This document shows positions 7,226 to 18,502 of a DNA stretch of 64,000 nt, piece by piece (the first letter of the stretch is position 1; each line of letters begins with the position of its first letter). Source of the DNA: Alphaproteobacteria bacterium (GTDB lineage: Bacteria; Pseudomonadota; Alphaproteobacteria; Micropepsales; Micropepsaceae); contig JAGWNK010000001.1 of assembly GCA_028871345.1 (NCBI GenBank), positions 186,001 to 250,000 on the forward strand, written 5' to 3'. Position numbers and translations under genes: made by a program. Below the pieces are notes generated by a model. That model saw nothing but the letters and a program-made list of their open reading frames with translations. It was not told the DNA's origin and searched no databases.

Positions 7226-7300
7226 TGGCGCTCCCAACCGGAATCGAACCGGTGTTTCAGCCTTGAGAGGGCCGCGTCCTGACCGCTAGACGATGGGAGC
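7226..7300 (-). tRNA. tRNA-Glu (anticodon CTC), CCA encoded
   Basis: Reading the minus strand, the acceptor GCTCCCA pairs with TGGGAGC, followed by discriminator G and an encoded CCA. The D-arm starts TCGTCTAG as in E. coli tRNA-Glu. The anticodon loop is CTCTCAA with CTC at 7267-7265. The T-arm is ACCGG-TTCGATT-CCGGT. All four stems form, with one G-T pair in the anticodon stem. Confidence 0.96.
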
Positions 7301-12941: not shown

Positions 12942-13044
12942 TCGCCGGCGGCCATGAGCGAACTTGGAAGCCGCCATGCGCGGCCGCGGCTTCGCTTGTG
13001 CGCGGCCGGACGCTAGCCTCCGATTTTCCAATGAGGAAAGGCCG

Positions 13045-13851
13045 ATGAAGCTCAAGCTCTGGCAGGTCGATGCGTTCGCGCGCCATGCCCTGGAAGGCAA
13101 TCCGGCGGCGGTAGTGCCGCTTGAAGCGTGGATCGACGCCGCGCTGATGCAGAAGATCGCGGACGAGAACAATCTGGCGGAGACGGCATTCTTCGTGCGC
13201 ACCGGCCCGGGACGCTACGATCTGCGCTGGTTCACGCCCGAGGCCGAGGTCGATCTTTGCGGCCACGCCACTCTGGGCAGCGCCTGGACCATCTTCGAAT
13301 ACCTTGATCCGGGGCTGGCATCGGTGTCCTTCCTGACGCGCTCTGGCGAACTGACCGTGACGCGCACCGCGAACGGGCTGTCGATGTCCCTGCCCTCCGA
13401 CATGCCGGCCACCTATGACGCGCCCGCCGGGCTGGCCAAAGCGATCGGCGAGGCCTTGGACGTGCCGATGCCGAAGGAGCTGCATAAGGCGCGCTACCTC
13501 CTGGCGCTGTGGGACGAAGCAAAGGTGATCCGTGGCATCAAGCGCATCGACGTGGGCCGGGTGCTGCGCGACGCGGGCTTCTGGGGCCTGGTCGTCACGG
13601 CCAAGGGCGACGAAGGCTACGATTTCGTGTCGCGCTTCTTCGCCCCCGACAAGGGCGTGCCCGAGGATCCGGTGACGGGCTCGGCGCACTGCATCCTGAC
13701 GCCGTTCTGGGCCAGGCGACTCGGCAAGAAGACGTTGAAAGCGCGCCAGGTATCCCCGCGCGGCGGCGATCTCGTCTGCACCGACGACGGCGCGCGCACC
13801 ACGCTCGAAGGCACCTGCGCGCCGTACATGACAGGCGAGATCAGCGTCTAG
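13045..13851 (+). CDS. PhzF-family isomerase-like protein
   Basis: 268 residues, the usual size for PhzF/diaminopimelate-epimerase-fold proteins. The opening KLWQVDAFARHALEGNPAAV, the catalytic Glu in NNLAETAFFV and the DLCGHATLGSAW motif are all present, followed by the second half with PEDPVTGSAHC. The real substrate of most non-phenazine members is unknown and no phenazine genes are near. ATG 13045 is chosen because it begins the family's conserved N-terminus. Confidence 0.88.
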   Translation: MKLKLWQVDAFARHALEGNPAAVVPLEAWIDAALMQKIADENNLAETAFFVRTGPGRYDLRWFTPEAEVDLCGHATLGSAWTIFEYLDPGLASVSFLTRSGELTVTRTANGLSMSLPSDMPATYDAPAGLAKAIGEALDVPMPKELHKARYLLALWDEAKVIRGIKRIDVGRVLRDAGFWGLVVTAKGDEGYDFVSRFFAPDKGVPEDPVTGSAHCILTPFWARRLGKKTLKARQVSPRGGDLVCTDDGARTTLEGTCAPYMTGEISV

Positions 13852-13866
13852 GCGGCGTCATTCCCC

Positions 13867-14283
13867 CTAGCCCGGCTCCTCGTCATCGACGATGCCGATG
13901 CCGAATTCCTCGAGCCCCTCCTCGAGATAGTCGGCGAGCAGCGGCAACTCGAGAAGGTAGTCCGCCGTGCGGTTCAGGTGCTCGGCGCGCGCCGTAGCCA
14001 GTGCCGCATTCCATTCGGTGATGTCGTAGGTGCCGCGGCCGAGCCAGGCCAACGCCACGAGTTCGAGGCGCTCGTCCTCGTTGAGAGCGCGAACGGCGTC
14101 CGCCAATTCCTGGCGCGTGCCGTCAAACGGCGAATCCTCGAGAATATCCACGCCGTTGTCGTCCGCGGGATTGGATCCCGGGTCCGGATCGGTAAGCGCC
14201 TCTTTGGCGTCCACCTCGCGGGCGCGTTCGATGATGAACGCCACCTTGTCGGTCGAGATATCGAGGCTCGGCGTATCGGACAT
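13867..14283 (-). CDS. DUF3775 family protein
   Basis: 138 residues, acidic. The start at 14283 is chosen because LDISTDKVAFIIERAREVDAKE is the DUF3775 N-terminus; upstream ATGs at 14307 and 14331 are possible. RQELADAVRALNEDERLELV and ALAWLGRGTYDITEW follow. The function of the family is unknown. It ends 15 bases from the PhzF gene, convergently. Confidence 0.78.
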   Translation of the reverse strand: MSDTPSLDISTDKVAFIIERAREVDAKEALTDPDPGSNPADDNGVDILEDSPFDGTRQELADAVRALNEDERLELVALAWLGRGTYDITEWNAALATARAEHLNRTADYLLELPLLADYLEEGLEEFGIGIVDDEEPG

Positions 14284-14416
14284 GTCACGGAGAGAAAAGA
14301 TCGGCATGGCGGCATCCCGGAGGTTCCCCAAGGAAACGGCTGGGCCGCGAGCCTGTTCCGCCCATGACCGGGTGGCGCATCCGAGCTATGGTATTGTCCA
14401 ATCCTTGGGGGGAACC

Positions 14417-14893
14417 ATGATGCGAATGAACGTGCTTTGGGCAGCGGTTGCAGCTGTCGTGTTGTGCACTTCGGCGCAGGCCGCGCCGAAGATCGACGAC
14501 CCGGTCATATTCGTGCGTTGGGTCTATGCCGAAATGGCGACCGACAAGAATTTCGCCTACCCCGAGGACGCCTTGAGTCCGCGCCTCAAGGCCTTGGAGG
14601 ATCTCGACAAGCGGGAAGCCGGCGGCGAAGTCGGACGGCTCGACTTCGACTTCTTCGCCAACGCGCAGGACTGGTCGATCTCCGACCTCAGCGTGACCGG
14701 TGCGCCGGTGGAGAACGCAAAGGATCGCGAGGTCGTCACCGCCCAGTTCAAGAACGGCAAACGAAAGAACGAAATCCATTTCTATTTCGAAAAGACCGCC
14801 GCCGGATGGAAGCTCGATGACGCACGTTCCGTCATCGGCGGAAGCTGGACCTTGTCGCTGATCCTCAAATACGGCTGGGATACGCCCGAATAG
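14417..14893 (+). CDS. Periplasmic protein, DUF3828-like
   Basis: 158 residues from ATG 14417 behind a GGGGGGAA Shine-Dalgarno. A signal peptide (VLWAAVAAVVLCTSAQAA) precedes a small domain with FVRWVYAEMATD, LDFDFFANAQDWSISDLSV and the end HFYFEKTAAGWKLDDARS. That is the shape of DUF3828/NTF2-like periplasmic proteins, but the family call is tentative. It ends about 55 bases upstream of the putative serC promoter. Confidence 0.7.
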   Translation: MMRMNVLWAAVAAVVLCTSAQAAPKIDDPVIFVRWVYAEMATDKNFAYPEDALSPRLKALEDLDKREAGGEVGRLDFDFFANAQDWSISDLSVTGAPVENAKDREVVTAQFKNGKRKNEIHFYFEKTAAGWKLDDARSVIGGSWTLSLILKYGWDTPE

Positions 14894-14947
14894 ACGGCGA
14901 ACGAAAATTTCTCCTTATGTAAGAAGCCGGACGAACGGCATTTCCGT

Positions 14948-14976
14948 TTGACTGCGCGCCGGCGAATCTGTAAGCA
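14948..14976 (+). promoter_or_regulatory. Candidate serC promoter
   Basis: TTGACT at 14948-14953 and TAAGCA at 14971-14976 with 17 bases between them. The first hexamer is good, the second weak. A transcript starting near 14983 would begin just before the first leader hairpin, which fits. Not proven. Confidence 0.35.
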
Positions 14977-14989
14977 CGTTTCCGGGCCA

Positions 14990-15027
14990 CGCCTCCCCAA
15001 CGAGGCGCAACATTCTGGAAGGAATGT
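14990..15027 (+). promoter_or_regulatory. serC leader RNA: two hairpins, the second masking the Shine-Dalgarno
   Basis: Hairpin 1: CGCCTC (14990-14995) with GAGGCG (15002-15007), loop CCCAAC. Hairpin 2: ACATTC (15010-15015) with GAATGT (15022-15027), loop TGGAAG; the serC Shine-Dalgarno GGAAGGA lies in its loop and 3' arm, 6-10 bases before the ATG at 15031. A conserved serC RNA motif is known upstream of serC in alphaproteobacteria, and this arrangement is probably an instance. The ligand, if any, is unknown. Confidence 0.75.
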
Positions 15028-15030
15028 GAG

Positions 15031-16188
15031 ATGACCGGTACAGCACCGGCCGTGCGCCCTGCACGGCCTTTTTTTTCGTCCGGACCCTGCGCCAAGCGCC
15101 CCGGATGGACTCCTGAAGCTCTCAACGCCGCCCTTCTGGGCCGCTCGCACCGCTCCAAGCCGGGCAAGGCCCGGCTGAAGGATGCAATCGACCGCACCAA
15201 GGCGATCCTCGGCATCCCCGTGGATTACCGCGTGGGCATCGTACCGGCTTCGGACACAGGCGCCGTCGAGATGGCGCTATGGTCGCTGCTCGGCCCCAAG
15301 ACGGTCGACCTCTTCGCCTGGGAGAGCTTCGGCGAGGACTGGGTCACCGACACGCTCAAGCAGCTCAAGCTGAAGGACAGCCGCATCTTCAAGGCGGCTT
15401 ACGGCGAACTCCCGAATCTCAAGGAAGCCGACCCCAACAACGACATCGTGTTCCTGTGGAACGGCACGACGTCGGGCGTGCGCGTGCCGAATGGCGACTG
15501 GATCTCCGACAACCGCGAGGGACTGACGATCTGCGATGCGACCTCGGCCGCCTTCGCCATGGACCTCCCGTGGAAGAAGCTCGATGTCGCGACGTTCTCC
15601 TGGCAGAAGGTTCTGGGCGGAGAAGCCGCGCACGGCATGCTGGTCCTCTCCCCGCGTGCCGTTGCGCGGCTCGAGGCCCATACCCCGCCCTGGCCGATGC
15701 CGAAGATCTTCCGCATGACCAAGGGCGGCAAGCTCGTCGAGGGAATATTCGAGGGCGAGACCATCAACACGCCGTCGATGCTGGCCCTGGAAGATTACCT
15801 GGATGCGCTGAAATGGGCCGAATCGATCGGCGGCCTGAAGGGCCTTATCGCCCGCTCCAACGCCAATGTCGGCGCCCTGGCGCGCTGGGTGAAGGAAAGC
15901 GGCTGGGCCGATTTCCTCGCCAAGGACGAGGCCATCCGCTCCAATACCTCGGTCTGCCTCAAGATCGTCGATCCCTGGTTCGCAGCCCTTGGGGCCGATG
16001 CGCAGGCGGATGCGGCGAAGAAGATCGCCTCGACGCTCGAAAAGGAAGGCGTGGCGCTCGACATCGCCGCGTATCGCGCTGCGCCGCCGGGTTTGCGCAT
16101 CTGGTGCGGCGCGACGATCGACCACACCGACGTCGAAGCGCTGACGCCCTGGCTTGACTGGGCCTGGGGCACGGTCAAGGCCGGCTGA
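15031..16188 (+). CDS. serC: Phosphoserine aminotransferase SerC
   Basis: PLP enzyme making 3-phosphoserine from 3-phosphohydroxypyruvate and glutamate. 385 residues, alphaproteobacterial form. [13 protein letters not shown] begins the conserved part, and the PLP lysine is in [17 protein letters not shown]. The family also shows [14 protein letters not shown] and [20 protein letters not shown]. The ATG at 15031 has GGAAGGA upstream and is the only sensible start, so the terminator hairpin lies in coding sequence. It leads a serC-sseB-serA operon. Confidence 0.96.
15048..15077 (+). terminator. Intrinsic terminator inside the first codons of serC (attenuator)
   Basis: GGCCGTGC (15048-15055), loop GCCCT, GCACGGCC (15061-15068), then nine T (15069-15077): a perfect 8-bp GC-rich stem and U-run, lying entirely within serC codons 6-16. 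CCGGT (15035-15039) can pair with ACCGG (15045-15049), a smaller hairpin that takes the first two bases of the terminator stem. This suggests mutually exclusive structures. Confidence 0.8.
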
Positions 16189-16208
16189 GCATCCATCCGG
16201 AGGAGCCG

Positions 16209-16910
16209 ATGAGCTTCGAGCCCGAAAATGCTCTGGAGAAAGCCATGGCGCTGGCAGCAGCGCAGGAGAGCGCGCGCCCGGCATTCTTCCGCTCCATGAT
16301 GGAGGCCGAGTTGTTCCTGCTGGGCGAGGCCGACATCGAAAACTCCGGTCGGCTGAGCATCGACACGATCACACGCGGTGCCGAGACATATCATCCGGTT
16401 TTCACGTCCGAGCGGCGGTTGCGCGAATTCGTGCGCGGGCCTGCCCAGGGGTTCACGATGGGAGGGCGCGTCTTGTTCCTCGCCACGCGCGGCGCGGCCT
16501 TCGTCATCAATCCGGGCTCTGAACTCAACAAAATCCTGCTGCCGCAGGAGATCGCCTACTGGCTCGACCAAGCCGCACCGTCACCCTCGATCACGGTGAT
16601 ACCGCCGCCCAAGCATCCCAAGAAGCTGATCCAGGCGCTGTCCGTGCTGTTCACCAGCCGCTCCCGCGTGACGTCGGCCCGGTTGATCTACGCCGCACAG
16701 GAGGGGCTGAAGCCCTATCCGTTGATCGGCATCGAAGCGGAAGGTGACGCGCGCCTCTTGTCCAAGGAGATCTTCGAAGCGGCCGCCGCCGCCATGCCCA
16801 GAACGCGCATCGACGTCATCCACCTCAATGCTCCCGGGCTCAAGCATCCTCTCCAGGAGCACCTTCTCGCCATCGCGCCCTTCTACGAGCGCAAGACTCC
16901 GATCAACTGA
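16209..16910 (+). CDS. sseB: SseB-family protein (enhanced serine sensitivity)
   Basis: 233 residues. The N-terminal SseB domain (ENALEKAMALAAAQESARPA, FFRSMMEAELFLLG, TSERRLREFV) is followed by an SseB C-terminal domain (PHPKKLIQALSVLF-like, then HPLQEHLLAIAPFYERKTP). E. coli sseB was named for a serine-sensitivity phenotype; its biochemistry is unclear. It sits between serC (20-base gap) and serA (14-base gap), which makes a serine-related role likely here. Confidence 0.85.
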   Translation: MSFEPENALEKAMALAAAQESARPAFFRSMMEAELFLLGEADIENSGRLSIDTITRGAETYHPVFTSERRLREFVRGPAQGFTMGGRVLFLATRGAAFVINPGSELNKILLPQEIAYWLDQAAPSPSITVIPPPKHPKKLIQALSVLFTSRSRVTSARLIYAAQEGLKPYPLIGIEAEGDARLLSKEIFEAAAAAMPRTRIDVIHLNAPGLKHPLQEHLLAIAPFYERKTPIN

Positions 16911-16924
16911 CAGGAACCGTAGCC

Positions 16925-18502
16925 ATGCCCAAGGTCCTCATCGCCGACAAGCTTTCCCCCGCCGCCGTCGCCATCTTCAAGATGCGCGGCGTCGAAGCCG
17001 ACGTGAAAACCGGGCTTTCCAAGGAAGAGCTGCTGAAGATCGTCGACCAGTATGACGGCATCGCGATCCGCTCCGCCACCAAGGTTACGGCCGAGGTCAT
17101 CAAGGCGGCGAAGAAGCTGAAGGTCGTCGGCCGCGCCGGCATCGGGGTCGACAACGTCGACATTCCCGCCGCGACAGCCGCCGGCGTCATCGTCATGAAC
17201 ACGCCGTTCGGCAACTCGATCACCACCGCCGAACACGCCATCGCGCTGATGATGGCGCTGGCTCGCGAGCTGCCAGCGGCCAATTCCTCGACCCACGCCG
17301 GCAAGTGGGAGAAGAACCGCTTCATGGGCGTCGAACTCTACGGCAAGACGCTGGGCCTGATCGGCGCGGGCAACATCGGCGGCATCGTCGCCGACCGCGC
17401 CAAGGGCCTGAAGATGCATGTCGTCGCCTACGATCCCTATCTGTCGCCTGAGCGGGCGCAGGAACTTGGCGTGGAGAAGGTCGAGCTCGACGAACTGCTG
17501 GGCCGCGCCGATTTCATCACGCTGCACACTCCGCTCACCAGCGAGACGCGCAACATCATCTCGGCCGACGCCATCAACAAGATGAGGAAGGGCGTGCGCA
17601 TCATCAACTGCGCCCGCGGCGGGCTGGTTGACGAAGGGGCGCTCAAGGCCGCGCTCGACTCCGGGCAGGTGGCGGGCGCCGCCCTCGACGTCTTCTCGGA
17701 GGAACCTGCGAAGACGAACATCCTGTTCGGTCACGACAAAGTGGTCGCGACGCCGCATTTGGGCGCCTCGACCGAGGAAGCGCAGGAGAACGTGGCCCTC
17801 CAGGTGGCCGAACAGATCTCGGACTACCTTCTCACGGGCGCCATCATCAACGCACTCAACATGCCCTCGATCAGCGCCCAGGAAGCGCAGCTGGTGAGGC
17901 CGTGGATCGCCTTGGCCGCCAAGCTTGGCGCCTTCGCGGGGCAGCTCACGGAGACCAGCATCGAATCGGTGGAGATCCTCTACGAAGGGACCGCCGCGAC
18001 GATGAACCAGCGGGCGCTGACACAGGCGGCCTTGGCAGGCCTGCTCAAACCGCATCTACCGGAAGTCAACATGGTCAATGCCCCGATCGTGGCCAAGGAG
18101 CGCGCCATCAAGGTGAGCGAGACGCGCCGCGACCGGCAGGGCATATACGAGGGTTACATCAAGATCACAGTCAAGACGGCGAAGATGGAGCGCGGCGTTG
18201 CCGGCACGGTATTCTCCGACGGCCGGCCGCGGCTGATCCAGGTCAAGGGCATCAATCTGGATGCCGAATTCGCGCCGCACATGCTCTACGTCACCAACGA
18301 AGACAAGCCCGGTTTCATCGGCAGGCTGGGCACGCTCTTGGGCGAAGCGCACGTGAACATTGCGAATTTCACGCTCGGCCGTGCCGCGCCGGGGTCCGAT
18401 GCCATCGCGCTGGTGGAGGTCGACGGTGAAGTCAGCGAAACCGTCGTAGCGGAAATCCGCAGGCTTCCCCATGTCCGGCGGGCCAAGGCCCTTGCATTCT
18501 AG
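16925..18502 (+). CDS. serA: D-3-phosphoglycerate dehydrogenase SerA
   Basis: First step of serine synthesis: NAD-dependent oxidation of 3-phosphoglycerate. 525 residues, the long form. NAD-binding domain with GLIGAGNIGGIVADRAKGL; catalytic residues in NCARGGLVDEGAL and TPHLGASTEEAQENVALQVA; then an ASB-like domain and a C-terminal ACT domain (VTNEDKPGFIGRLGTLLGEA) that usually mediates serine feedback. Last gene of the serine operon. Confidence 0.96.
   Translation: MPKVLIADKLSPAAVAIFKMRGVEADVKTGLSKEELLKIVDQYDGIAIRSATKVTAEVIKAAKKLKVVGRAGIGVDNVDIPAATAAGVIVMNTPFGNSITTAEHAIALMMALARELPAANSSTHAGKWEKNRFMGVELYGKTLGLIGAGNIGGIVADRAKGLKMHVVAYDPYLSPERAQELGVEKVELDELLGRADFITLHTPLTSETRNIISADAINKMRKGVRIINCARGGLVDEGALKAALDSGQVAGAALDVFSEEPAKTNILFGHDKVVATPHLGASTEEAQENVALQVAEQISDYLLTGAIINALNMPSISAQEAQLVRPWIALAAKLGAFAGQLTETSIESVEILYEGTAATMNQRALTQAALAGLLKPHLPEVNMVNAPIVAKERAIKVSETRRDRQGIYEGYIKITVKTAKMERGVAGTVFSDGRPRLIQVKGINLDAEFAPHMLYVTNEDKPGFIGRLGTLLGEAHVNIANFTLGRAAPGSDAIALVEVDGEVSETVVAEIRRLPHVRRAKALAF

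Follow-up and report, generated by a model that had tools for sequence, protein, structure and literature searches.

The first codons of serC in the window, a 64,000-nucleotide stretch of alphaproteobacterial DNA, hold an element of the intrinsic-terminator type, a GC-rich hairpin (P3) that runs directly into a U-tract, behind the orphan serC leader RNA (Rfam RF00517). The evidence for this element as coding-embedded and selectively constrained is strong at the level of sequence and moderate for the mechanism, which would be a new variant of translation-coupled attenuation. Our fullest reading, to which we give a little less than an even chance, is that in the window's family, and seemingly by separate events in a few more, the orphan serC element gained a ribosome-gated intrinsic terminator within codons, with synonymous codons and Phe14 chosen for it; the ribosome would serve as antiterminator, and a single control of initiation would set translation as well as transcription of the operon.

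Starting from the 5′ end, a probable promoter, read off the sequence, would probably start the transcript near 14982–14984. A scan with the sigma-70 consensus gives no match in this region; TTGAC with a loose TATA-like element 15–20 nt away is present in 30 of the 35 leader-bearing relatives in the window's family, and a somewhat stricter pattern at 49 of 147 leader loci. The three genes downstream are separated by gaps of 20 nt (serC to the sseB-like gene) and 14 nt (the sseB-like gene to serA), and probably form one operon. The serC protein has no Pfam match at an E value of 0.001, and the sseB-like protein scores below the NCBIfam SseB cut-off (82 versus 295 bits).

Table 1 Features of the serC locus, in window coordinates.
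Feature	Position	Strand	Evidence or detail
Probable promoter: TTGACT 14948–14953, 17-nt spacer, weak TAAGCA 14971–14976	14948–14976	+	Read off the sequence
serC leader RNA (Rfam RF00517), full-length model match	14980–15031	+	53.8 bits; gathering score 35
Hairpin P1, with CCCCAACG loop region	14990–15007	+	Fold and pair changes
Hairpin P2, Shine–Dalgarno AAGGA (15019–15023) in loop and 3′ arm	15010–15027	+	Predicted fold
serC, phosphoserine transaminase, 385 aa	15031–16188	+	NF002841 676 bits; TIGR01365 655 bits
Small hairpin CCGGT/ACCGG (15035–15039/15045–15049)	15035–15049	+	CCGG..CCGG pattern
Terminator hairpin P3, 8 bp, 5-nt loop, serC codons 6–13	15048–15068	+	Scan, fold, score, conservation
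U-tract of eight T	15069–15076	+	Third base of Pro13, Phe14, Phe15, first base of Ser16
sseB-like gene, operon position 2	16209–16910	+	PF07179 and PF14581 above cut-offs
serA, phosphoglycerate dehydrogenase, operon position 3	16925–18502	+	TIGR01327 698 bits

Comparison with the covariance model identifies the leader as a member of the serC RNA family, and the hairpin that the sequence-only reading had described as burying the Shine–Dalgarno sequence is P2 of that family. The Rfam model has 52 positions, the last being the first base of the ATG, and the leader here, as in the family, precedes serC and serA, with the sseB-like gene between them; the start of serC lies downstream of the leader at 147 of 150 leader loci. 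Across a covariation set of 38 sequences (the window's family and four sequences from other families with the same stem), two-sided changes occur in three of six pairs in P1 and in three of the six Rfam pairs in P2, with 100% and 99.1% of cells paired, respectively. The P1 loop reads CCCA[AC]CG at 146 of 147 loci, and GGGNCA[CT] is found by pattern at 132 of 147. The GGG at the 5′ end of the leader (14984–14986) and the CCC of the P1 loop (14996–14998) are nearly invariant and could pair as a small pseudoknot. The only ATG within the leader (14980–15030) sits at 15024 and is immediately followed by TGA; an upstream open reading frame with regulatory codons, as in trp-type attenuators, is absent from this segment.

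P3 is formed by GGCCGTGC (15048–15055) and GCACGGCC (15061–15068) around the loop GCCCT (15056–15060), with G-C in seven of its eight pairs; the scan tool adds a ninth, G-T pair inside the loop. Together with the adjoining U-tract, it has the sequence form of an intrinsic terminator and spans the third base of codon 6 to the first base of codon 16, counted from the ATG at 15031. The sequence-only reading had an 8-bp GC-rich stem and nine T in these codons: the stem and its position stand, whereas the T-run is eight long. That reading had also offered the small hairpin upstream of P3 as a competing switch. The small hairpin exists and overlaps the terminator stem by two bases only, but a comparable pair is found by pattern in just 17 of 35 relatives, which leaves a general switch unsupported. 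The minimum free energy fold of 14980–15080 holds P1, P2 and P3 at once (−39.1 kcal/mol, z −2.3), and 3 of 200 shuffled sequences fold as well.

The terminator score, of the d'Aubenton-Carafa type and applied to perfect stems only, is 59.6 for P3 and its U-tract, the sole positive element on the plus strand of the window; the minus strand has one, at 1.8. Forty dinucleotide shuffles give a mean of 0.33 positive elements on the strand and a maximum of 19.3. The exact element sequence occurs once in the genome. A looser scan of 13000–18000 returns 2 terminator-like sites against 3.5 in shuffles, so that the count of loose matches is not significant by itself; significance rests on the strength of P3 and its conservation. 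Rfam matches to SorY (17.8 bits, gathering score 111) and SorX (14.7 bits, gathering score 46.6) were set aside as generic terminator shape.

RF00517 scores above its cut-off in 42 of 61 genomes in a search of relatives and in 115 of 386 in a search of the class, the window's own genome counted. Within the window's family the leader is present in 36 of 40 searched genomes; one of these leaders stops at a contig edge, leaving 35 readable serC genes. All 35 have the P3 stem with exactly eight T adjoining it, with scores from 48 to 62, against 0.44 positive scores expected under synonymous recoding that keeps the protein and draws on the codon usage of the gene and of serC genes of similar GC3; these genes are related and do not represent 35 independent events. 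The codons CCG, GTG, CGG, CCT, TTT and TTT are invariant in all 25 full-length family genes, and the other four hairpin codons vary solely at loop or G-U-tolerant positions. One relative in which Val replaces Ala retains the pairing as G-U.

Mean pairwise synonymous diversity is 0.42 over the remainder of serC in the 25 full genes, and the lowest 10-codon windows are those of the element (0.189–0.205). Around alignment column 220, however, diversity falls nearly as far (0.206); low synonymous diversity alone is therefore no proof. P3 is paired in 99.7% of cells across the 38 sequences, with one-sided G-U changes only and zero two-sided changes; its pairing therefore rests on synonymous constraint rather than on covariation. 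Four of five whole-structure measures beat all 500 shuffles, the exception being pair types. All 35 family members have Phe before the FSSGP motif, at position 14, as against 2 of 112 leader genes elsewhere, which suggests that the amino acid itself also serves the U-tract. P3 begins 17 nt after the last preceding ATGA in 23 of the 35 genes, 20 nt in 8, 26 nt in 2 and 32 nt in 1, the remaining value of 10 nt reflecting an internal ATGA rather than the real start; since this distance varies, a fixed ribosome footprint is not required.

The element goes with the leader in the family. Two leaderless members of the window's genus retain the RPxRPxF protein motif and lack the terminator: one has TTC TTC and no scoring stem, the other encodes His-Phe as CAC TTC and scores −73, and both fold weakly (−4.9 and −6.2 kcal/mol). 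Two further family genomes without an RF00517 match have a serC fragment or no serC. This association with a Shine–Dalgarno-sequestering leader, together with the constraint on synonymous sites, upholds the earlier suggestion of an intrinsic-terminator-type element inside coding sequence.

For the wider comparison, the 150 leader loci were reduced to 146 by removing one whose contig ends in the leader (L040), two in which the start was not found (L043, L209) and one lacking an FSSGP-type match (L228); L241, with a leader recognised by eye, brought the total to 147. The counts retain two exact duplicates (L006, L048) and two below-cut-off matches (L229, L230), and L247 and L248 were left out of the controls. 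L241 (genome G047) has a serC-leader-like sequence that does not exceed the Rfam cut-off, and L219, with the same family label (f12), is detected; as L241 shows, the serC leader family is under-detected.

Outside the window's family, 6 of 112 leader genes, in four families, have a positive terminator score, against 0.07 expected. These score 18.9 (L041 and L163), 24.7 (L152) and 1.4–2.0 (L174, L182 and L185), in other codon registers. Because the canonical terminator is absent from the remaining 106 loci, it is not part of the core serC motif. When the loci are sorted into 47 groups (46 family labels plus L241), 12 beat the synonymous null in folding at p 0.05 (about 2.4 expected; 1 of 15 leaderless controls), and 18 do so in terminator score (about 2.4 expected; 0 of 15 controls). 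With six non-family terminators, three of them barely positive, and 12 of 47 groups folding, the data do not support P3 as a third helix common to all RF00517 members.

Leaderless orthologs have no terminator score above zero, either in the searched genomes (0 of 15) or in the named genomes (0 of 10). Eighty named-genome loci, which overlap the searched genomes and hence are not independent, and whose leaders were called by pattern, divide into 49 with leader and terminator, 21 with leader only, none with a terminator without leader and 10 with neither; these ten leaderless loci do not match RF00517 at the gathering score or at E values up to 0.5. One leaderless serC (L129, 1502–1552) has the same stem followed by ATTTTTCTC and nearly passes with a score of −0.6, indicating that the terminator can outlive the leader or exist without it. 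At the FSS codon, 28 of 46 families use TTT (13.3 expected), as do 13 of 25 leaderless genes (9.6 expected), including 6 of the ten named ones (2.9 expected); a weaker pressure for U at this codon may therefore be wider than the strong terminator and not wholly dependent on the leader. Three loci from AT-rich genomes (L054, L059 and L158) have a serC leader and first serC codons without a GC-rich hairpin.

These features are best accommodated by a translation-gated intrinsic attenuator, in which blocked serC initiation lets P3 stop transcription of serC-sseB-serA; we put this somewhat above even. A transcript started near 14982 would form P1 and P2 first, and P2, by holding the Shine–Dalgarno sequence, would keep ribosomes off serC. 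With initiation blocked, P3 would fold once transcribed and RNA polymerase would halt at the U-tract near 15076, releasing an RNA of about 95 nt. Some signal, a ligand or a protein, would open P2 and let a ribosome initiate at the serC ATG; its footprint and first steps would cover the 5′ arm of P3 (17 nt past the ATG here, 17–32 nt in relatives), P3 would be prevented from forming and transcription would continue through the operon. A single event, serC initiation, would thus set both translation and transcription. Since the predicted fold accommodates P2 and P3 together, a block on initiation would work the same way as termination. RNA polymerase takes about a second over the 46 nt between the ATG and the last base of the U-tract, and unless it pauses, ribosomes may in many cases come too late; a pause or partial read-through is likely. 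Ribosome stalling at the serine codons 16–17 was dropped on reasoning, as these codons lie at or behind the end of the U-tract.

The strongest rival, itself unlikely, is a classical RNA switch, in which a part of the leader such as the 5′ GGGNCAC pairs the 5′ arm of P3 as an antiterminator and a ligand decides without any ribosome. Folds suggest it: when the nascent RNA ends before the 3′ arm, every one of the 35 minimum free energy structures has between 5 and 7 of the eight 5′-arm bases of P3 paired, the partner of GGGCCAC is GUG-C-GCCC or GUG-C-GUCC in four of the seven folds displayed, and 97.7% of cells pair in the helix between GGGNCAC and the codons across the 38 sequences. Against this, pairing of GGGNCAC with the codons exceeds that of synonymous versions at p 0.05 at 0 of 136 loci and in 0 of 43 families (loci without a clear GGGNC omitted); two-sided changes are absent from the helix, shuffles reach an equal value and the invariance of the sequence precludes a covariation test. 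This antiterminator, the sole candidate tried, is thus unsupported by the synonymous null and the pair counts. As P2 and P3 are compatible and the one RNA-only antiterminator tried does not exceed its null, the ribosome is the obvious agent to cover the P3 codons in a translation-gated attenuator.

Slightly less probable is a non-terminating hairpin downstream of the start that tunes ribosomes or mRNA decay, the T-run merely reflecting Phe-Phe-Ser codons. In its favour, some families have a hairpin in these codons with no strong T-run next to it (L157 and L183, for example), and 12 of 47 groups fold better than their null. The U-tract speaks against it: eight T adjoin the stem in every family gene, and TTT TTT is fixed in all 25 full family genes even though TTT makes up only 30% of other Phe codons (57 full leader-bearing genes). 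Less probable again is a small RNA, in which promoter, leader and P3 with its U-tail yield a stable RNA of about 95 nt that acts in trans, read-through into serC being secondary. The unit of promoter, structure and terminator is complete, and regulatory RNAs arising from 5′ UTRs by early termination are described for E. coli in the available text of PMC7815308; on the other side, the serC start behind nearly all leaders and the Shine–Dalgarno sequence in P2 point to cis action. Chance or protein constraint, by which RPxRP-rich codons of a GC-rich genome yield palindromes, is very improbable, for although the RPxxPxFSSGP motif is common among leaderless orthologs too and such codons fold unaided (null mean −7.8 kcal/mol in the family), this explanation is rejected by the window shuffles, the protein-preserving synonymous nulls, the invariant codons and the single occurrence of the element in window and genome.

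As opposed to the trp-type leader-peptide attenuators of amino-acid operons, where ribosome position governs an intrinsic terminator, the terminator here lies in the structural gene, without a leader peptide or a run of regulatory codons. The serC motif was described, in the available text of Corbino et al. 2005 (PMC1273637), as two stems with Shine–Dalgarno sequestration and translational control; serine, threonine and five B6-related compounds had no effect on the A. tumefaciens leader, and terminators are mentioned for other motifs and for riboswitches generally. The window's leader shares with that motif P1, the sequestering P2, its place before serC-serA and its occurrence in alphaproteobacteria. 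It differs in being followed, past the first base of the ATG where the known model stops, by a terminator within codons. A 2020 review (PMC7266159) states, in the part available, that a revision by Greenlee et al. 2018 added conserved sequence and structures to the serC motif, and the added structure may or may not correspond to P3. In the literature searched, whose coverage leaves out this 2018 revision, no description of a terminator inside serC codons was seen.

Two known systems come close, as far as the available text of each goes. The E. coli btuB riboswitch represses initiation, with Rho termination then occurring in a C-rich early part of the open reading frame (PMC11162775); it resembles the serC arrangement in that blocked initiation leads to a transcription stop within early coding sequence, but Rho stops transcription there, whereas here a hairpin and U-tract built into the first codons are predicted to do so. 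A translation-dependent attenuator at a DUF1127 gene of Sinorhizobium meliloti (PMC12218461), also an alphaproteobacterium, likewise lets ribosome occupancy of early codons decide termination; it uses an upstream open reading frame whose translation promotes termination, whereas translation of serC should prevent it. The 143-nt S. meliloti RNA SmelC653, an mRNA leader that overlaps RF00517 by 34% in the available account (PMC2873474), and the RNA ReC69 upstream of serCA in Rhizobium etli tiling data (PMC2881028, available in part) fit short leader RNAs and prove no termination.

An orphan since 2005, the serC leader has so far been probed as an RNA of two hairpins. A working terminator would extend the element beyond the start codon, the limit of the Rfam model, and provide a transcriptional output open to in vitro assay; it would also offer a clear example of RNA function shaping codons and perhaps a residue. 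The attenuator, if true, would couple translational repression to an early transcription stop without Rho.

Elsewhere in the window, the gene upstream of the serC promoter (14420–14893) scores 25.7 bits for DUF3828, just below the Pfam cut-off of 26, and the sole other Rfam match at gathering score is a tRNA gene on the minus strand (7229–7300).
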